A stretch of 64,000 bases of DNA from Natronosalvus amylolyticus. Lineage in GTDB: Archaea; Halobacteriota; Halobacteria; Halobacteriales; Natrialbaceae. The DNA lies in the NCBI RefSeq assembly GCF_024298845.1, contig NZ_CP101156.1, positions 558,001 through 622,000 on the forward strand, read 5' to 3'. Numbering within the stretch: the first letter of the stretch is position 1; each line of letters starts with the position of its first letter. This document shows positions 21,303 to 61,436 of the stretch, one piece after another. The translations under genes and the position numbers were made by a program. Below the pieces are notes generated by a model that saw nothing but the letters and a program-made list of their open reading frames with translations, did not search any database and had not been told where the DNA came from.

Positions 21303-21453
21303 ACCCGGGCAGAGGAAGCCCTCCGTAATGAACGTTCGCGATTAACCGCCGCTATCTCACCACCTGGAGGATGTCACCGATCACCGATCCCACACTCGAG
21401 GGTGTAGCTGCGGGACCGATTGTGTGGAAATCGTCGATGCCTGATAGAGTACC

Positions 21454-21537
21454 TTAGTAGCTAGTAAAACGATGTTCAACCGACCGCGACGCACGCCTGG
21501 AATAGGTGTGTGCACTGACGTTCACTGGCTACTATAG
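21454..21537 (-). mobile_element. MITE-like palindromic element, family 1, copy A
   Basis: 84-bp element in the minus orientation relative to copy D at 45.4 kb. The right end TTCACTGGCTACTATAG is the full 17-bp terminal repeat; the left end (TTAGTAGCTAGTAAAAC) is diverged. It overlaps the 3' end of ribB: the last codons and TGA of ribB lie inside the terminal repeat. No transposase is encoded. Confidence 0.75.
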
Positions 21538-42352: not shown

Positions 42353-42697
42353 GGAAATCGGGGTCAGGGGCAAGCGGGTGTCGTCTATGTAGACGTTTTC
42401 GTGGGATACCTTATAACTTCAATATCTCGATTCGACTCTGTCGGTGAGTGCTCACTCGAGTGCTATGGGTATTTCGGCCGAATTATCAGTAAACGAAACA
42501 GAACGACCGATAGTAGCCAGTGAAACGAACCCCCACCGATCACGACGCCGTCCTGCGATAGGGTGTGCACTGACTGTCACTGGCTACTAGCGCTCTGCGG
42601 ACGTCGAAGGGATGGCGAGCCGGTATATCTGTCCCTGTTTGGGAGCCATACCGTAACCAATACTTGATGGGCTACGGCTCCAATCGAAAACCTGGCC
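42353..42697. other. Intergenic region holding MITE copy B
   Basis: 345 nt between the J-domain gene and the second PadR gene. It holds family-1 copy B (42510-42590) and otherwise no recognised gene. An A/T-rich patch ACCTTATAACTTC near 42410 may be the J-domain gene's promoter. Confidence 0.5.
42510..42590 (-). mobile_element. MITE-like palindromic element, family 1, copy B
   Basis: 81 bp, minus orientation. The terminal repeats ATAGTAGCCAGTGAAAC and GTCACTGGCTACTAG are near-complete, with GCGATAGGGTGTGCACTGAC in the interior as in the reverse complement of copy D. No coding capacity. Confidence 0.8.
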
Positions 42698-42973
42698 CTA
42701 CACGTCGACGTACTGTTCTTCCCACTCGCGACGCTCGTCGATTCGTGCCAGGCCCTCATCGGTAATAGCGTAATAATTCGTCCGACGGTCGAGTTGCCCC
42801 TTCTCGACGAGTTCTTTGTTGACGAGTGTATCGAGATTCGGATACAGTCGCCCGTGATTAATCTCGGAGCTGTAGTATCCTTCGACCTCTTCTTTGACAT
42901 TCTGGCCAGACGGTCGGTCCGCCCCGGCAATTACGTACAACAGGTCACGCTGGAATCCGGTCAGATCGTGCAT
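42698..42973 (-). CDS. PadR family transcriptional regulator (short)
   Basis: 91 aa. LTGFQRDLLYVIAGADRPSGQNVKEEVEGYYSSEINHGRLYPNLDTLVNKELVEKGQLDRRTNYYAITDEGLARIDERREWEEQYVDV is a compact PadR winged helix, a paralogue of the gene at 10.6 kb. Just upstream on the other strand lies ACCGTTCCGT (42991-43000), one mismatch from the ACCGTTCGGT form of the palindrome in front of that paralogue. Targets unknown. Confidence 0.85.
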   Translation of the reverse strand: MHDLTGFQRDLLYVIAGADRPSGQNVKEEVEGYYSSEINHGRLYPNLDTLVNKELVEKGQLDRRTNYYAITDEGLARIDERREWEEQYVDV

Positions 42974-43240
42974 TGCTCAATCACATGGACCGTTCCGTTG
43001 AATGGATATTTGTTATCCGCATCATACAGCCGTGTACCGATCGATTTTGAAAAGCGATGTGAGCAGTTTCACATCACTACACCTGACTACCATTGACGGA
43101 ACGATCGACCGGATTAATCACGGAAGTCGCTCCGAGGCCTCTCCAGCGTCTTCGATCGTTCAGTTGTCGCTGTGCGCAAAAGATCCGTACTCCCCCAACT
43201 CGGCGGCCACCCTTGGGCGTAATGACAACCGTATCGATAC

Positions 43241-43570
43241 TCATTCACCAGCAACGGTCGACACGTCGATACCGTTTTGGCCGATTGTAACCTGGACGTG
43301 ATCGACGGTTGCCTCGTAGGCGGTCGTATGCGTTCCGTTTTCCTCGAACCGTATACACTCCGCCAGTAGTTCACTCTCGAGCAGATTGTTGATTCGGCGA
43401 TAGACCGTTGCTGAGGAACAGTCTGCAATCTCGGTAAGCTCTTTGGCTGTTTGTGGGCCGTCACTGGTTGCAATCAGAATGGTACGTGCGCATTCGTCCC
43501 CCAGTACGTTGAGTTTGGCCATGGTATCGACGGTCGATTCTGCTGTGACGTTGTTTGCGTGCGTTGACAT
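43241..43570 (-). CDS. Winged-helix (ArsR-like) transcriptional regulator
   Basis: 109 aa from the ATG giving MSTHANNVTAESTVDTMAKL. Winged helix: LGDECARTILIATSDGPQTAKELTEIADCSSATVYRRINNLLESELLAECIRFEENGTHTTAYEATVDHVQVTI. It resembles the haloarchaeal one-component regulator at 15.4-15.7 kb, with a beta-rich end. Upstream, CAGTATGT occurs twice (43602-43609 and 43639-43646), a possible binding site. The partner gene is not adjacent here. Confidence 0.82.
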   Translation of the reverse strand: MSTHANNVTAESTVDTMAKLNVLGDECARTILIATSDGPQTAKELTEIADCSSATVYRRINNLLESELLAECIRFEENGTHTTAYEATVDHVQVTIGQNGIDVSTVAGE

Positions 43571-44035
43571 GGATTGAATCACCCTCTGAAACGGTTGGGC
43601 GCAGTATGTGGAACGAGCCTGCGGCCGTGAGTTGGCCTCAGTATGTTCCAGTCACCTGCCTCGTAGGCCGTATGGGTATTTTATAACGGACATCCTTACA
43701 GAGTGGAATGCTGATCATTACTCCCAGAAACCGCCGATTTCGAACGAGTAATTACTGATTTCGTCACGCCCTATTGGGTGCTTATACCGTGAACTGGAGA
43801 AAAAGCAGGTGAATTCAGTGAGATGAATTTCCAAGTTTCCGTCCGGAGACACCGGAGTGTCCGGGTGTAATCGAATCCAAACACCTGCAAGTGCGATGTT
43901 ACTACGCGCTTCCGGGACAGACTCGAGTGAACAAACGTTCGCCTTTATTCAGATCTGGCTGCCTCGATTTCATACTGCTCGGGGCCAGCCACCCGGCGGC
44001 ACTCGAGTACACGTGACCAATGGATATCTCTACAC
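43571..44035. other. Intergenic region
   Basis: 465 nt. It holds the direct repeat CAGTATGT (43602 and 43639) and a minus-strand TATA-like TTATAAAATACC near 43675-43688, both probably for the ArsR-like gene. No gene is supported. Confidence 0.4.
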
Positions 44036-44227
44036 ATGAACTCACCAAAACACACCTGGACGCCAACTGAATCGAAATCGACGGGAACACGCTGTCGCAA
44101 CTGTGGCACACACGTCACCCAGCAGTTTGCTCGCGTGTTTGGTGATAACGGCGATGTCGTCCACGGTTGCCCATCGTGTACGACGTATCGGGAAATGCAA
44201 TCGGGTGGCCACTTGCCAACACGCTAA
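44036..44227 (+). CDS. Small zinc-ribbon protein (DUF7563-like)
   Basis: 63 aa. Two Cys pairs in RCRNCGTHVTQQFARVFGDNGDVVHGCPSC (CxxC ... CxxC) form a zinc ribbon. Sequence and size fit haloarchaeal DUF7563 small proteins. Such 'micro' zinc-finger proteins often act as regulators. Starts at the ATG (MNSPKHTW). The role here is unknown. Confidence 0.75.
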   Translation: MNSPKHTWTPTESKSTGTRCRNCGTHVTQQFARVFGDNGDVVHGCPSCTTYREMQSGGHLPTR

Positions 44228-44557
44228 CGACGTCGCGGAGACATCGTCCTGAAATCGTACCAGGATTTACATTTTGATAACCTATAGTCGCCAGTGACAG
44301 TCAGTGCACACCCTATCGCAAATGGGCGTCACGTTAGGTGTGTAAATCGTTTCACTGGTCACAGTATTCGTGAGTGCTACGCCAGATTCGAATCCGCTAT
44401 TCTGGCTTTTCATTCTATCCATCCAGGATTAAGTCAGCCACAAGCACATAGAACATCTTACATCAGCTTCAAATGGGCTGTAGTTGAGTATCAGAGTGTT
44501 ACGATGGTAGGTGGTGGACTGTTCGATAGCTGCTGTGGGACAGAGAGTTGCTAAGAT
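44228..44557. other. Intergenic region holding MITE copy C
   Basis: 330 nt. It contains family-1 copy C (44283-44364) and the presumed promoter of the downstream DUF7344 gene. Nothing else is recognised. Confidence 0.45.
44283..44364 (+). mobile_element. MITE-like palindromic element, family 1, copy C
   Basis: About 82 bp, plus orientation. Left end TATAGTCGCCAGTGAC, interior GTCAGTGCACACCCTATCGC, right end TTCACTGGTCACAGTA (diverged). Clearly homologous to copy D. Confidence 0.75.
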
Positions 44558-45076
44558 ATGTCACTACAGCAACGCCGTTCTGATACGCTGGCCGAAAGCG
44601 AAATTTTCCATATTCTCGGGAACGATCGACGTCGAGCGATCGTCCAACTACTCGCGTCTGAACCCGGGCAGGTTGACGTGTCAGCAGTGGCCACGGCGAT
44701 TGCGTCCCAGGAAGTTGGGGAAGACGTCTCGAGTAACGAGAGCGAGACGGTACCGAACAATCTGTACAAGAGCGTCTACGTCTCGCTGCAACAAACCCAT
44801 CTCCCGCAACTCGAGGAAGACGACGTCATCTCGTACGATTCGTCGGCGAAAACGCTTCGACGGGGAGAACAGTTCGACGCCGTGTATCAATACGTTGACG
44901 GAGAGCACACAAACGACAAACAGCTCATGCTCTCCCATCTCTCCCTCAGTGTTCTCGGCCTGGTCGTGATCGTGCTCGCGGGCTTCTCTCTCCCCTTCAG
45001 TATCGATCCGGTGCTCTCGAGCGTACTACTGTTCTTGCTGGTCGGTGCGAGTAGTTTGTATCGACTGTTAACGTAA
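44558..45076 (+). CDS. DUF7344 family winged-helix membrane protein (paralogue)
   Basis: 172 aa. Same order of parts as the gene at 6.6 kb: an N-terminal winged helix (AESEIFHILGNDRRRAIVQLLA), the conserved KSVYVSLQQTHLPQLEEDDVISYD, and two C-terminal hydrophobic helices (HLSLSVLGLVVIVLAGFSLPF and PVLSSVLLFLLVGASSLYRLLT). A degenerate MITE copy begins 15 nt after its stop. The two proteins are distant, so they may serve different signals. Confidence 0.8.
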   Translation: MSLQQRRSDTLAESEIFHILGNDRRRAIVQLLASEPGQVDVSAVATAIASQEVGEDVSSNESETVPNNLYKSVYVSLQQTHLPQLEEDDVISYDSSAKTLRRGEQFDAVYQYVDGEHTNDKQLMLSHLSLSVLGLVVIVLAGFSLPFSIDPVLSSVLLFLLVGASSLYRLLT

Positions 45077-45090
45077 TCGGTGTGTTCTCT

Positions 45091-45174
45091 CGTAGCTACT
45101 GGAACGGTTCACATACCTATCACGGCGCCGTCTTGTGAGAGTGTGTGGACGTCATTTTCAATGGCCACTGTAGG
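45091..45174 (-). mobile_element. MITE-like palindromic element, family 1, copy E (degenerate)
   Basis: About 84 bp, minus orientation relative to copy D. CGTAGCTACTGGAACGGTTC at the left and TTTTCAATGGCCACTGTAGG at the right are diverged terminal repeats; the interior CACGGCGCCGTCTTGTGAGA matches by position. The oldest-looking copy. Confidence 0.55.
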
Positions 45175-45363
45175 AGATCCCGAACCTGCACCTCCGAGTA
45201 GACTCGACTGTGCACGTCCGGTGCCGCTCAGGACGCAACGTTTGGGAGAAGACGGGTACTCACCGTCGAGTGGCATGGTATTAACCTTCACACGCGTCTG
45301 AAGACATGGGCATGCGCCCGCACCATATACCAATTCAGACTGCAATTTCTTTTCGACGTGCCA

Positions 45364-45449
45364 CTATAGTAGCCAGTGAACGTCAGTGCACACCCTATCG
45401 CAAGCGGGCGTCGCGGTAGGTGTGTAAATCGTTTCACTGGCTACTATAG
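45364..45449 (+). mobile_element. MITE-like palindromic element, family 1, copy D (most intact)
   Basis: 86 bp with perfect 17-bp terminal inverted repeats, CTATAGTAGCCAGTGAA and TTCACTGGCTACTATAG. The interior (GTCAGTGCACACCCTATCGC, GGTAGGTGTGTAAATCG) also has partial dyad symmetry (CACACC/GGTGTG). No coding capacity. Used as the reference copy. Confidence 0.85.
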
Positions 45450-45510
45450 GTGGCCTCCACCACGTTTCTGCCAAAGAAATAGCGAAGGACGTCACCCGAT
45501 CAGCTGACGT

Positions 45511-47058
45511 TCACAGGGGTGACAGTGCGCCGATCGGAACGAGTCGGTCCGCTTCGCCGTTGTCGTTTTCGTCCATGTCGTCATCAGCTTCTTCGTCTTC
45601 AGCTGCCTCGAGTGTGATGAACGCCACCTGACCGAACTCGTCGGTCAGAACCATGTGGACGTACTCACCTGGCTCGATATCAGCCGTATCTACTTCGAAG
45701 GTCACCGTTTCACTTTCCTCAGGTCCGAGTGTGAGTGATTGTGATTCGACGAGGTTCCCTTCGAGTCTGAACTGAACGTCCTGGGTCGCTTCCTCATCAG
45801 TCGGGTTGGTGATGGTTGCAGTCACCGTAATGACGTCGCCAACAGTCGCATTTTCGGGTGCCTCGAGGTCATCTACGGTGAACGACTCCGTTTCTTCGAC
45901 GTCCTCTTCAGGCTCGTCCTCCTCGGGTTCGTCTTCCTCGGGCTCGTCCTCTTCAGGCTCGTCCTCTTCAGGTTCGTCCTCTTCAGGTTCGTCCTCCTCA
46001 GGTTCGTCCTCCTCGGGCTCGTCTTCCTCAGGTTCGTCTTCCTCAGGCTCGTCTTCCTCAGGTTCGTCTTCCTCAGGCTCGTCTTCCTCAGGTTCGTCTT
46101 CCTCAGGCTCGTCTTCCTCAGGTTCGTCTTCCTCAGGTTCGTCTTCCTCAGGCTCGTCTTCCTCAGGTTCGTCTTCCTCAGGTTCGTCTTCCTCAGGCTC
46201 GTCTTCCTCAGGCTCGTCTTCCTCGGGTTCGTCGACATCGACTTCCCCGTCGAGGATTTCCTCGAGACGGTCGAGGTCCGCATCGTCACCGATAACGAGT
46301 ACGTAGACCTCAGCGTTTTCGATGACCAGTTCTTCGATCGTTAGATTCTCGATGATGACGAAGGTTGCCTGCGGTTGAACGATTGCGACACCGTCCTCGA
46401 CGGCGTCATGATCCGGCTCCATGATGACCGTCTCATCATCTTCGGGTTCTTCTTCCTCGGGCTCGTCTACCTCAGGCTCGTCCTCTTCAGGCTCGTCCTC
46501 TTCAGGTGCTTCGTCTTCCTCGAGTGTAACGACTGCGTCGTCAGTCACCGGTTCGCCGTCTTCGTCCACGTATGGACCGTCTTCCTCACCTTCGGTTTCG
46601 ACGAAGTCGTATTCCTGGTTATCGTTGGTATCCAGGTGCGGCATCGCGATCAACGTCTCACTCTCCTCGAGTGGCTCGTCGAGTTCGATTTCGACGTTTT
46701 CGTGGGTGCCTGCCTCGAGATATTCGGAGACGCCGATGACGCTCTCGATCACGTTCCCAACGAGCAACGAACTGTCGTGAATCGTGACGAAGCCACCCTC
46801 GTCCATGGTGACTTCGTCGACGACAACTGTTGTCCCATCAGTGGTTTGGTCGCTAAACGTGACACTTGCGGCCGGCTCTGCGACCGCATCGTCATCCTCG
46901 TCTGTATCTGTATCGTCCGGTTCATCGTCGTCGTTCGAATCGTCCTGTGCCGAAACAGTCGTCGGTGATGCTACTGCGGCCCCCGCCACCATGGCGACCC
47001 CGCTACACAGTACCATCAGCGCGACGAATGCAACGACGAGTTGTTTCCGTGTGCTCAT
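45511..47058 (-). CDS. DUF7282 surface protein with EEDEP repeats
   Basis: 515 aa from the ATG giving MSTRKQLVVAFVALMVLCSGVAMVAGAAVASP, a Sec-type signal peptide. The domain after the acidic linker (SVTFSDQTTDGTTVVVDEVTMDEGGFVTIHDSS, LVGNVIESVIGVSEYLEAGTHENVEIELDEPL) is DUF7282. Next comes a VIIENLTIEELVIENAEVYVLVIGDD segment, then about 22 copies of EEDEP, then a CARDB-like beta domain (APENATVGDVITVTATITNPTDEEATQDVQFRLEGNLVESQSL). Likely a secreted or cell-surface protein with a rigid acidic spacer. No membrane anchor is seen. Confidence 0.85.
   Translation of the reverse strand: MSTRKQLVVAFVALMVLCSGVAMVAGAAVASPTTVSAQDDSNDDDEPDDTDTDEDDDAVAEPAASVTFSDQTTDGTTVVVDEVTMDEGGFVTIHDSSLLVGNVIESVIGVSEYLEAGTHENVEIELDEPLEESETLIAMPHLDTNDNQEYDFVETEGEEDGPYVDEDGEPVTDDAVVTLEEDEAPEEDEPEEDEPEVDEPEEEEPEDDETVIMEPDHDAVEDGVAIVQPQATFVIIENLTIEELVIENAEVYVLVIGDDADLDRLEEILDGEVDVDEPEEDEPEEDEPEEDEPEEDEPEEDEPEEDEPEEDEPEEDEPEEDEPEEDEPEEDEPEEDEPEEDEPEEDEPEEDEPEEDEPEEDEPEEDEPEEDEPEEDEPEEDEPEEDVEETESFTVDDLEAPENATVGDVITVTATITNPTDEEATQDVQFRLEGNLVESQSLTLGPEESETVTFEVDTADIEPGEYVHMVLTDEFGQVAFITLEAAEDEEADDDMDENDNGEADRLVPIGALSPL
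45900..46232 (-). repeat. Tandem 15-nt repeat encoding (EEDEP)n
   Basis: About 22 copies of a 15-nt unit (plus-strand reading CTCGTCTTCCTCAGG with C/T changes at third positions). Only silent changes separate most copies, so the peptide unit is constant. Slippage or recombination is the likely origin. Long open frames in the other readings are artefacts. Confidence 0.9.
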
Positions 47059-47380
47059 GTATCTCGTGCCTGTAAGGCGTCGGAGAATAGACGAAATATA
47101 GTATAAAGCGGGCAATCCCTTCCGGCCGGTAACGAAATACTGGACTGTACAGTGGCTCGTTCACCCTCCGAACAGTATCGAAAAGCCTCATTGGGATGAG
47201 AGTCACTCGAGCGTTGCTTTCAGTGCCATCGACGGGTCCGGTTGCTGTTGCTGTGTTTCTCTGGACGACGACTCACAATGTAGCGTCGATGGCCGACAGG
47301 TTGCAAGCGCTCGGCGAGTCATGAACAGTACCGACAGTCCGAATCATACGGTCTGTTGTATCTTTTCCAGGTAAACCGTA
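47059..47380. other. Intergenic region with promoter and family-2 element
   Basis: 322 nt. The promoter of the DUF7282 gene is at 47095-47108 and a family-2 palindromic element occupies 47344-47383. Nothing else is recognised. Confidence 0.45.
47095..47108 (-). promoter_or_regulatory. TATA-like box of the DUF7282 gene
   Basis: On the minus strand GCTTTATACTATAT lies about 37-50 nt before the ATG at 47058, a suitable place for a haloarchaeal promoter. Confidence 0.5.
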
Positions 47381-47383
47381 TCA
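47344..47383 (-). repeat. Family-2 palindromic element, short copy
   Basis: 40 bp. On the minus strand it starts with the stop codon of the upstream HTH gene: TGATACGGTTTACC at one end and ACAACAGACCGTATGA at the other. Compared with the copy at 61.4 kb it has an internal deletion of 35 bp but keeps both ends. Confidence 0.65.
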
Positions 47384-47869
47384 GTCCGTCCGCTTCATTT
47401 CACTCGAGGTCGAAGAATCACTGGATCGAGAGAGTTGCGGTTCGTGGCCACGAATACAGACGAGGTTCTCACGCCCGAGTCGTAATTTCGTGACCTGGCC
47501 GTCCTTCTCCAGTTCGCTCAGGAGACGGCTCACTTTCGCTTTCGACCAGTCGACAGAGTCGACGATAGCAGACTGTTTCATCCGCCCACCGTTATCCCGG
47601 ATGAGTGAACAAACCAGTTCCCTGTCCGTCTTGACGGGTTGCTGATCCGTGTGGCTGCCGGTCTCGCTTTTTGCTCGTGAGAGTCGTTTTTTCACGTGCA
47701 ACGAACCACCCAGCACGGCCAGGGCTACAATCCCGACCAGGGCTGCCAAATGGGATCGACGATCGGTCTGTAAAATGAACTCGCTGGGCAGGGCAAAGAC
47801 CCCGGTAACGTCGGTCCAGACCCACGCGGTTTCGAGGAGGAATACACCGGCAATCTGTATGGAATTCAT
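47381..47869 (-). CDS. Membrane helix-turn-helix protein (DUF7343-like)
   Basis: 162 aa from the ATG giving MNSIQIAGVFLLETAWVWTD. It starts with hydrophobic segments (IAGVFLLETAWVW and LAALVGIVALAVLGGSLHV), followed by a basic stretch KKRLSRAK and a C-terminal winged helix: DRELVCSLIRDNGGRMKQSAIVDSVDWSKAKVSRLLSELEKDGQVTKLRLGRENLVCI. It fits the haloarchaeal membrane-anchored MarR-like regulators. Its stop codon lies at the edge of a family-2 palindromic element. Confidence 0.82.
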   Translation of the reverse strand: MNSIQIAGVFLLETAWVWTDVTGVFALPSEFILQTDRRSHLAALVGIVALAVLGGSLHVKKRLSRAKSETGSHTDQQPVKTDRELVCSLIRDNGGRMKQSAIVDSVDWSKAKVSRLLSELEKDGQVTKLRLGRENLVCIRGHEPQLSRSSDSSTSSEMKRTD

Positions 47870-48072
47870 GGAAACTGAATAGTGGACGGTGCTCGAGTGA
47901 CAGTTCGTCAGCATCAAACGACACGTGGCACCTAAATCATTTTTATAAGGGAGGCAGGTTGTACTCGGAAAGTGAAAGTGGAAATAGCGGGAAACTCACG
48001 GTCGACAGTTGGTTATCAGAGGTCGTCGCGGCAACTCGAGTTAACACCTTTCGAATGGCCATCGTAGTAGCT

Positions 48073-48157
48073 ATCGTAGCCAGTGAAAGTCAGTGTACAC
48101 CCTATCGCAAGCGGGCGTCGCGTTAGGTGTGTAAACCGTTTTAAGCCCATCTATATC
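48073..48157 (+). mobile_element. MITE-like palindromic element, family 1, copy F (3' end lost)
   Basis: Left end TATCGTAGCCAGTGAAAGTC and interior GTACACCCTATCGCAAGCGG match copy D; the right end (TTTTAAGCCCATCTATA) is diverged. It sits at the end of a minus-strand coding remnant. Confidence 0.7.
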
Positions 48158-48370
48158 CGCCATTTGGAACGATTCAATGGCAAACACGCATCTACAGAAG
48201 GCGAGTGCCTCGGGGTCGTTCGGCTGATCTTGATCTTCCGTGACTGAGCGACGCAAAGCTTCGCGATGGCCGCGAAACCGATGGTTTGGCTCGATGACGA
48301 AAGACTCGAGGTTTTTTCAACCACTTGCCCCCGAGGTACTTCACGAATGGCAGGGTGATCATCTCCGCTC
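48150..48370 (-). pseudogene. Frameshifted coding remnant truncated by MITE copy F
   Basis: In one minus-strand frame MITLPFVKYLGGKWLK (about 48360-48310) is followed, after a shift at the poly-T tract near 48309-48318, by NLESFVIEPNHRFRGHREAL and RRSVTEDQDQPNDPEALAFC, running to RCVFAIESFQMADIDG. The joined reading looks like haloarchaeal protein (acidic, normal codon use) and ends where MITE copy F begins. No family is recognised. It is probably the wreck of a small gene. Confidence 0.4.
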
Positions 48371-48375
48371 TCGTT

Positions 48376-48726
48376 TCAGGTTGGAACACCGACGGCGTCG
48401 AACGTTGTAACACCGACAACCGCCAGGAGCGTCAACACGATCAGCACGCTGAGCCAGGCGACCAGCGTGATGAGGAGCGCCCGAATCCATCCCCCAGGAT
48501 ATCGAGCATTGATCACCGATAAATACGCCAGGAACACGAGTATCGGGCCCAGAAATGGTATCCGGCCGAAAAAGAAGCCGACGACACCCCAGACGAGCGC
48601 ACCGAATAACGCCGTGACGATAGCGTAGGTGTAATCCGTCGTGTCGACGATGGCTCGAGCGCCGACGTAGATACCGAGTGCGCCGATCAAGAGGCTAACG
48701 ACGAAGACGATGATGCTGTTCAGCAT
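48376..48726 (-). CDS. Small integral membrane protein
   Basis: 116 aa from the ATG giving MLNSIIVFVVSLLIGALGIYVGARAIVDTTDYTYAIVTALFGALVWGVVGFFFGRIPFLGPILVFLAYLSVINARYPGG. Four hydrophobic helices, the last near TLVAWLSVLIVLTLLAVVGV. Resembles conserved haloarchaeal membrane proteins of unknown function. MITE copy G lies 56 nt upstream, in the promoter region. Confidence 0.7.
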   Translation of the reverse strand: MLNSIIVFVVSLLIGALGIYVGARAIVDTTDYTYAIVTALFGALVWGVVGFFFGRIPFLGPILVFLAYLSVINARYPGGWIRALLITLVAWLSVLIVLTLLAVVGVTTFDAVGVPT

Positions 48727-48781
48727 ACCCCGCGTTCTGTGATCGTTGACAGTAACTAATGACCTCCTACTCGAGGAAGCA

Positions 48782-48863
48782 TATAGTAGCCAGTCAAAGT
48801 CATTGAATACGCTATCGCAAGACGGCATCGCCGGAGCGGTCTAAATCGTTTTGTTGGCTACGA
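48782..48863 (+). mobile_element. MITE-like palindromic element, family 1, copy G (diverged)
   Basis: 82 bp. TATAGTAGCCAGTCAAAGTC at the left and TCGTTTTGTTGGCTACGA at the right; the interior CGCTATCGCAAGACGGCATC is diverged from copy D. It lies upstream of the small membrane protein gene. Confidence 0.7.
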
Positions 48864-48890
48864 CAACTTGCCCGACCACGGACAACCGCA

Positions 48891-48919
48891 CCGCGAAAAA
48901 GATACAGCAGACCGTTTCA
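48891..48919 (-). repeat. Family-2 palindromic element, half copy
   Basis: On the minus strand the stop codon of the epimerase gene runs straight into TGAAACGGTCTGCTGTATCT and TTTTCGCGG, which matches one arm (inverted) of the element at 61.4 kb. The other arm is not clear. Confidence 0.5.
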
Positions 48920-59517: not shown

Positions 59518-61364
59518 CCGAAGTCGATGCGGTGACGGCTATTTATCCGCCACTACTGGTCTTCGCGACGGCACTGTTGGTACTGGTTATCCCCCGAATC
59601 CTCGGTTTTGCCCTCGGTGCGGTGAGTCTGGCTACCGTGACCGTCATCGCGTACGTTGCCCCCGAAGGCGGGCACATGGCGATGACGTTCCTCGGATTCG
59701 ACGTCCAGCCGTATCTCGTCGACGAGTACACCCGATTCGTCGCCATCGGACTCGGCTTCCTCGGTACCTTCGCCGTCGTCTACGCGTACTCGAGCGAGGC
59801 GTCTCGAGGGATGGCTGCGTTCGCACTCGCGTACGTCGCCAGTGCGCTCGGGGCCGTCTTCGCCGGCGACTGGCTCGTCCTCGTGTTCATGTGGGAAATC
59901 ATGGCCGTGACGAGCACGCTGCTCGTCTGGCACTTCGGGGGCGACGCTGTCCGCGCGGGCTATCGCTACGCGCTGGCTCACGGGATCGGTGGCAGCCTCG
60001 TCCTGTTCGGGGTCATCGCTCACTACGCCCAGGCGGGGACGTTCCTCTACGGACAGGGCGTGGGCCTCGAGCAGACGTTCATCACTGGCGGTATCGCGAC
60101 GGGTATTCCCGCTCTGCTTGCCGTCCTGGGTATCGGCGTCAACGTGGCCTTCATCGGCTTTCACACCTGGCTGCCGGATACCTACCCCCGACCACACCTG
60201 GCCGCGTCGGTGTTCCTCGCCGCGTTCACGACAAAGACGAGCGCATACGTCCTGTTGCGTGCGTTCCCTGACGGGCACATCTGGCTCGCGTACATGGGCG
60301 GGTTGATGGCCGTTTACGGCGCTGGTTTCGCGCTCCTCCAGCACGATATGCGCGCCCTGCTTTCCTATCACATTCAGGCCCAGCTGGGGTACATGGTCGC
60401 CGGTATCGGCATCGGATCGGCCATTGGGATTGCCGGCGCGATGGGACACCTCTTCAACAACGTACTCTACAAGAGCCTGCTGTTCATGGCCGTCGGGGTC
60501 GTCATCTATCGAACGCGAGAGAACGACCTGTACAAACTCGGCGGCCTCTGGCGAGAGATGCCACTGACGGCACTCGCCTTCTTCATCGGCGCGCTCTCGA
60601 TTACCGCCGTACCTGGGTTCAGCGGCTTTATCAGCAAGGGGATGGTGTTCGATGCAGCAACCGGTTACTTCGGTGGGACCGAGCACTGGCCGCTGTTCGT
60701 GCTGTTGTTCATCGGCGGCATCGGAACGTTCCTCTCGTTCATCAAACTGGGATTCTACGTCTTCTTCCACGGGGAAAGTGACCGGGAGGTCAGAGATGCC
60801 AAAACCGGACAGACGACCGCCATGCTCTCTGTCGGTGGCGCCTGTGTCGTCCTCGGGCTGCCAGCCGTCGGCTGGCCAATCTTCACCGACCTCCTCCCGG
60901 TCATCGACGGTACCCAGTTCACCGGCCCGGAGGGGCTCGAGACGCTCAACCCCTACAGTATGGGCCACCTGCAGGACGCTGCGCTCTTGCTCGGTATCTC
61001 GGCAATCGCGTTCCCGATCATCCGGAAACCGCTCTCGAAGCTCGATTTCCGTGATCCGGCGACGTACGTCAACCCTGTCGGCTACAGACTTGGACGGTGG
61101 TCGATGCTCGGCGTTACCGAACTCTTCGCTGCCGTCGACCGAGCCGCTGTCGGACTGGTACGGACGTGCTACTGGGCCGGAAACAATCCCGTACGCGCTG
61201 TCGGGGCCGTTGTGAATCGTGTACCCGATAGCGTGCTCGAGAGCGATGTGTTCGAAGCCCGTGACGGGAAATCTCCCTCGACACTGTCCTTGCGGGCCAC
61301 TATCGGGATGACCGTCTTGATGGTCACGGTGGTGTTAACGAGCATGCTCTTGCTCGTGCTCTGA
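59514..61364 (+). CDS. Mrp/Nuo-type proton-translocating subunit (third copy)
   Basis: 616 aa ND4/ND5-like subunit with about 14-16 membrane helices. Core: FMWEIMAVTSTLLVWHFGGDAVRAGYRYALAHGIGGSLVLFGVIAHYAQ, LLAVLGIGVNVAFIGFHTWLPDTYPRPHLAASVFLAAFTTKTSAYVLLRAFP, LQHDMRALLSYHIQAQLGYMVAGIGIG, GFSGFISKGMVFDA. Last gene of the operon; the stop TGA is the first base triplet of a family-2 palindromic element. Confidence 0.92.
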   Translation: MTEVDAVTAIYPPLLVFATALLVLVIPRILGFALGAVSLATVTVIAYVAPEGGHMAMTFLGFDVQPYLVDEYTRFVAIGLGFLGTFAVVYAYSSEASRGMAAFALAYVASALGAVFAGDWLVLVFMWEIMAVTSTLLVWHFGGDAVRAGYRYALAHGIGGSLVLFGVIAHYAQAGTFLYGQGVGLEQTFITGGIATGIPALLAVLGIGVNVAFIGFHTWLPDTYPRPHLAASVFLAAFTTKTSAYVLLRAFPDGHIWLAYMGGLMAVYGAGFALLQHDMRALLSYHIQAQLGYMVAGIGIGSAIGIAGAMGHLFNNVLYKSLLFMAVGVVIYRTRENDLYKLGGLWREMPLTALAFFIGALSITAVPGFSGFISKGMVFDAATGYFGGTEHWPLFVLLFIGGIGTFLSFIKLGFYVFFHGESDREVRDAKTGQTTAMLSVGGACVVLGLPAVGWPIFTDLLPVIDGTQFTGPEGLETLNPYSMGHLQDAALLLGISAIAFPIIRKPLSKLDFRDPATYVNPVGYRLGRWSMLGVTELFAAVDRAAVGLVRTCYWAGNNPVRAVGAVVNRVPDSVLESDVFEARDGKSPSTLSLRATIGMTVLMVTVVLTSMLLLVL

Positions 61365-61436
61365 TACGGTTTACTGTCGTCTCTTACCGACCCCGTATGG
61401 GTATTCACCGGTAAAAAGTTACAGCAGACCGTATGA
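61362..61436 (+). repeat. Family-2 palindromic element, full copy
   Basis: 75 bp starting with the stop codon of the last antiporter gene: TGATACGGTTTACTGTCGTC at the left and AAGTTACAGCAGACCGTATGA at the right, so ATACGGTTTACTGT and ACAGCAGACCGTAT form the inverted ends. The interior is not coding. It could be a MITE or a terminator. Confidence 0.6.

Follow-up and report, generated by a model that had tools for sequence, protein, structure and literature searches.

Our analysis indicates that the short palindromic repeats clustered in this stretch of DNA are copies of a MITE, i.e. of an 80-bp element which inserts at TA, is probably mobilised in trans by an IS630 transposase resembling those of ISNamo16/ISNpe3 and has very probably been amplified lineage by lineage, followed by neutral decay. 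The element is mobile, as seen from empty sites in other species, from the duplication of TA, from sites in a species of the same genus that carry no copy and from its presence in 102 of 125 Natrialbaceae genomes. The reading as a MITE, which had already been put forward in a preliminary description made from the sequence alone, is supported by the empty sites, the TA duplication, the copy number and an IS630 relative with matching target and end design.

The element is ordinary in kind, and unusually widespread and uniform. A search of the literature available to us returned no description of it; the kind of element is known, and this family of copies seems to be undescribed. A large, unannotated repeat family of the Natrialbaceae and of plasmids of other haloarchaea now has exact boundaries, a target and a link to IS630, which should help annotation and provides insertion markers at the species level. 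In addition, it offers a testable case of long-term mobilisation in trans without an evident parent.

Copies in the window

The window, i.e. the whole 64-kb stretch that was analysed (G000:C1:558001-622000), had been described as containing six copies within 6.4 kb and a seventh one elsewhere. All seven are real, with profile E-values from 2.7e-30 to 1.2e-11, and no eighth copy was found below E=0.05 when the window was searched with an nhmmer profile built from copies of the same genome. The best copy lies on the plus strand at 45364..45449 (nhmmer 2.7e-30) and consists of C, TA, the 80-bp element (45367-45446), TA and G. The same strand carries two copies with a decayed right end, at 44282..44367 (9.5e-25) and 48071..48156 (7.7e-24), and a decayed copy at 48781..48866 (7.3e-21). 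On the minus strand are found a decayed copy at 42508..42592 (5.1e-19), the most decayed one at 45087..45173 (1.2e-11) and, outside the cluster, the seventh copy at 21452..21537 (1.2e-17). Both orientations and differing stages of decay are thus represented, as had been stated before; the coordinates given at that time need correction by a few bases. With 3 mismatches or fewer, the window contains 10 occurrences of the terminal 14-mer TAGTAGCCAGTGAA versus 1.8 expected, a number reached in none of 100 shuffles. That a matching transposase is missing from the window was borne out as well: it contains no match to PF13358, and the three matches of this genome (C1:1363211, 1527172 and 2348676) lie outside 558001-622000.

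Structure of the element

The element proper comprises 80 bp, and the repeated unit of 86 bp consists of a target base, TA, the element, TA and a second target base. Fifty-seven copies from many species align without gaps over the 86 columns, with a mean column identity of 91%. The best copy had been credited with perfect terminal repeats of 17 bp; its 14 terminal bases are indeed perfect, but the outer three (C, T, A) are the target base and the duplicated TA. Of 92 copies, 63 carry the flanking C and 62 the flanking G; since the two occur more or less independently, these bases are part of the target and not of the element.

The element forms a near-complete palindrome. The outer stem has 18 pairs, TA and target base included, and is followed by a conserved internal loop, GTCA(N)/(A)ATCG, a middle stem of 7, a bulged C, an inner stem of 7-8 and a variable loop 9-11 bases long. 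For the best copy the fold z-score of the hairpin is -7 as DNA and -9.7 as RNA. In most genera the two ends of the element are unlike each other, reading TAGTAGCCACTG on the left and, inward, TAGTAACAACTG on the right; both are TAGTAGCCAGTG in the genus of the window. One copy (L149, G102:C2:49099-49223) is split in its loop by about 42 bp and could be a longer element related to the 80-bp one.

Insertion into TA and mobility

The flanks of 46 copies were joined and compared with the 125 genomes, and several of them matched other species across the junction. At four loci (L155, L156, L159 and L162) the empty site is CTAG and the occupied one C-TA...TA-G. At a fifth (L160) G replaces C, the empty site being GTAG and the occupied one G-TA...TA-G. 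The net gain of the occupied over the empty site is 82 bp, i.e. the 80-bp element plus the duplicated TA. Empty sites in relatives, named in the preliminary description as a means of checking it, are therefore present at five loci, where they are precise and clean; three further comparisons (L126, L102 and L112) are too diverged or lie within TAG microrepeats. In addition, a sister species of the same genus (G004) shares synteny with the window, the identity being about 85-92%, and in the alignment five of the six clustered sites, among them those of the copies at 42508, 44282, 45087 and 48781, hold no copy in G004; the sixth interval, at 48.07 kb, contains one whose orthology with the copy at 48071..48156 is undecided. 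The 80-bp element enters the TA of CTAG, sometimes of GTAG, and duplicates TA, so that an occupied site reads C-TA-[TAGTAGCC...GTTACTA or GGCTACTA]-TA-G.

These junctions also bear on a different kind of mobility. REPINs and REPs (PMC3116915, PMC3733652) are likewise short, palindromic and intergenic, occur in high copy number and carry GTAG near their end. The present element at times also forms tandem pairs, and it might be taken for a REPIN/REP-like element that is moved by a single-strand transposase of the HUH, RAYT or IS200 type. Unlike REPINs and REPs, however, it has a TA target duplication, true terminal inverted repeats and a kinship to IS630. The precise duplication of TA at CTAG together with terminal inverted repeats fits the double-strand DDE mechanism of IS630, and the two arms do not form a hairpin each. 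A REPIN is largely refuted by the TA duplication and is hardly credible here.

A separate observation is that CTAG is strongly avoided in the window (24 seen versus about 235 expected from its base composition) and is yet the preferred target of the element.

Distribution and genomic surroundings

In the genome of the window, 82 near-exact terminal repeats were found in forward and 83 in reverse orientation, versus 0 in a reversed-pattern control; the resulting 165 is a count of terminal repeats and not the exact number of copies. Among the Natrialbaceae, copies are present in 102 of the 125 genomes, representing 23 of 29 genera; the listed genomes of genera g6, g9, g10, g11 and g14 gave no copies. 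On plasmids, 223 places in 52 records were found. Among the named records with copies are Natrialba, Natrinema, Natronorubrum, Natronococcus and Halomontanus. Plasmids of Haloarcula, Halomicrobium and Halostella harbour copies as well, a sign of horizontal spread. Phage records and viral contigs, searched with the exact pattern and at blastn sensitivity, gave zero copies. Only 3 of 76 classified copies lie in ORFs as defined by a simple ORF caller, the rest being intergenic, and in 42 of 46 annotated plasmid records no gene is found under the best match. In single genomes, two copies of the MITE follow each other head to tail, their matches being 85-89 bp apart; this was seen at L058 and, in Natrinema thermotolerans, at L347 and L365.

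Two other features of the neighbourhood were noted. A second palindromic repeat family of about 73 bp (GATACGGTCTGCTGTA...TACAGCAGACCGTAT) occurs in the window at 61363-61435, 47345-47360 and 48903-48918, and has 29 end matches with at most 1 mismatch in the same genome (2 in the control). It nests with the MITE, being located inside MITE copies at L266 and L274 and adjoining others at C1:780629 and 1870990 of the genome of the window. Furthermore, the minus strand of the window encodes at 45511-47115 a 534-aa ORF, by eye exported-looking, with about 24 tandem 15-bp repeats that encode EPEED units.

Relationship to IS630 elements

Duplication of TA is a mark of the IS630/Tc1-mariner group. A search for the DDE_3 domain (PF13358) was positive in 75 of the 125 family genomes, and 36 IS630 loci were sampled, of which two show the same element again; their length is about 1055 bp. 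Like the MITE, which duplicates TA in CTAG/GTAG, the IS630 elements are flanked by TA in a C...G context, the left TA being preceded by C in 34 of the 36 loci and the right TA followed by G in 29. ISNamo16-type elements end in TATAGTAG.../TATAGTAAC... or, at greater length, in TATAGTAGACGTTAGAAATAATTGCTCAC at one end and TATAGTAACCGTTAGAAC at the opposite one. The terminal inverted repeats of the MITE are related to these: both share the first 6 bases after TA (8 including TA) and a G/A asymmetry between left and right end, and at positions 9-29 the left end of the MITE matches the right end of IS630 in 12 of 21 bases (shuffle p 0.0025). A representative transposase is assigned to IS630 by NCBIfam and by Pfam DDE_3, and is annotated as ISNamo16 family on the Natrialba magadii plasmid pNMAG02. 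Other IS630 subfamilies, with ends GGGATCAGC... and GTGTAGCTTCAA..., were rejected, as their ends are unrelated to the MITE.

The shared ends, their asymmetry, the subterminal bases and the C-TA-G target with its TA duplication make an IS630-type transposase acting in trans the likely mobiliser and, judging by type from the sequences, this would probably be the enzyme of the ISNamo16-type elements or one closely related to it. An IS630-family DDE transposase of or near the ISNamo16/ISNpe3 type would be supplied in trans, recognise the two related, non-identical ends, excise the element and join it at a TA. Each lineage would have amplified master copies on its own, and the older copies, mostly between genes, would decay neutrally.

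The mobiliser is inferred by type because no parent with exact ends was found and because the presence of PF13358 does not track that of the MITE. In detail, 125 genomes of the family and 392 of the order, two sets that overlap, were searched with an end pattern that excluded intact MITEs. The loci inspected, a part of the matches, contained no autonomous element with the exact extended ends of the MITE and were broken MITEs, nested insertions or unrelated sequence only. The search for an autonomous IS with the same terminal repeats, as proposed earlier, thus yielded a relative that agrees with the MITE in its target, its duplication and the design of its ends, but no parent with exact ends. 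One candidate, L185 (1363-2503, Natrialba magadii pNMAG02), displays MITE ends 1137 bp apart around an IS630 gene. It was ruled out as a parent, since the sequence shows a MITE copy with a CTAG into which an ISNamo16-type IS630 has inserted, and hence a relative only; the nested insertion exemplifies the target choice common to both elements. A repeated TATAGTAACAACTGGC match in genomes G193 and G308 comes without a paired element end or a transposase ORF and was taken as chance; the locus, as it reads, is presumably an rRNA locus.

The copy-rich genomes G002, G003, G031, G066 and G011 contain no PF13358 transposase at all, and in G015 and G020 ISNamo16-type elements are present and the MITE is absent, so that there is no simple one-to-one link among the family genomes. 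The genomes without PF13358 and the failure to find a parent with exact ends would both be accounted for if a different TA-duplicating transposase moved the MITE, in which case the insertion at TA would stand and the ISNamo16-type mobiliser would fall. This we consider rather unlikely, as the ISNamo16-type ends and target agree with the MITE in several independent features. Moreover, the absence of PF13358 from draft assemblies may reflect loss after past bursts, the copies in the genome of the window having diverged among themselves by several percent. It is improbable, too, that the MITE is an orphan lineage, with the same 80-bp hairpin family-wide and without a parent, in which the folded single strand, and not only the terminal repeats, is recognised by the host or by an IS630-type enzyme acting in trans.

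Conservation of the hairpin

The preliminary description had held that a conserved RNA with compensatory changes, orthologously fixed in all relatives, would speak against a MITE. Several observations are in line with a mobile structured RNA or a regulatory hairpin that is selected at its sites, e.g. as a terminator, mRNA stabiliser or small RNA. Across genera, 93.4% of the hairpin is paired, and two-sided changes number 62, compared with 18.6 in shuffles and no more than 20 in slid controls; overall the fold z-scores are about -7 to -11. In addition, 25 of the 37 copies in tandem contexts point with the upstream gene and 12 against it, a weak bias. The co-variation between species is real (C13-G74, for instance, has become G-C, and C32-G56 has become U-A), but paired changes would likewise arise in a master lineage if symmetrical terminal repeats co-evolved with a transposase or if palindromes were corrected.

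Within the genome of the window the changes are of a different kind. In 34 sequences the stems show 107 one-sided versus 6 two-sided changes, 2 of which still pair, and with four consensus-fixed pairs set aside there is no excess of G-U (34) over A-C (39) mismatches. An apparent strand bias for G-T wobbles vanished when the same four positions were left out. Furthermore, an Rfam gathering search of the window gave 0 matches, the copies are mostly found at non-orthologous places, and convergent gene pairs are not preferred (19 convergent, 17 divergent and 37 tandem contexts). Compensatory changes between species thus exist, without orthologous fixation and without compensation inside the genome. 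Given the uncompensated decay within the genome, the lack of a G-U over A-C excess and the mostly non-orthologous copies, an RNA role is unsupported and, in our opinion, highly improbable. The hairpin structure of the MITE is kept in the master lineage, not at genomic sites.

Comparison with known systems

The ISNamo16/ISNpe3 group of haloarchaeal IS630 elements resembles the MITE in the TA duplication inside C-TA-G, in the host family, in ends that start with TAGTAG on one side and TAGTAAC on the other, and in related subterminal bases. The inner end sequence differs, being GTTAGAA in ISNamo16/ISNpe3 and CACTGAAA in the MITE, and only the former, with their ~1055 bp, encode a DDE transposase, in two frames; the MITE contains no part of the transposase gene.

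The MITEs of Haloquadratum walsbyi (PMC3119063) likewise have transposon-related terminal repeats, a target duplication, a length too short for a transposase and similarity to their partner at the ends only, and they include MITEs without a functional transposase in the genome. They are confined to a single species, in which each strain has 55 copies from five families, whereas the present MITE is found in 23 of the 29 genera of its family at a nearly fixed 80 bp. The small mobile repeats (SMRs) of Haloquadratum (PMC3119063) are similar in their size of 80-110 bp, their inverted terminal repeats and their occasional insertion in other mobile elements; SMRs, however, lack a target duplication and have ends unlike those of any transposon, whereas the present element duplicates its target and has transposon-related ends. 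Being 80 bp long, too short for a transposase, multicopy and mobile, it is by the Haloquadratum definitions (PMC3119063) a MITE, and not an SMR or PATE.
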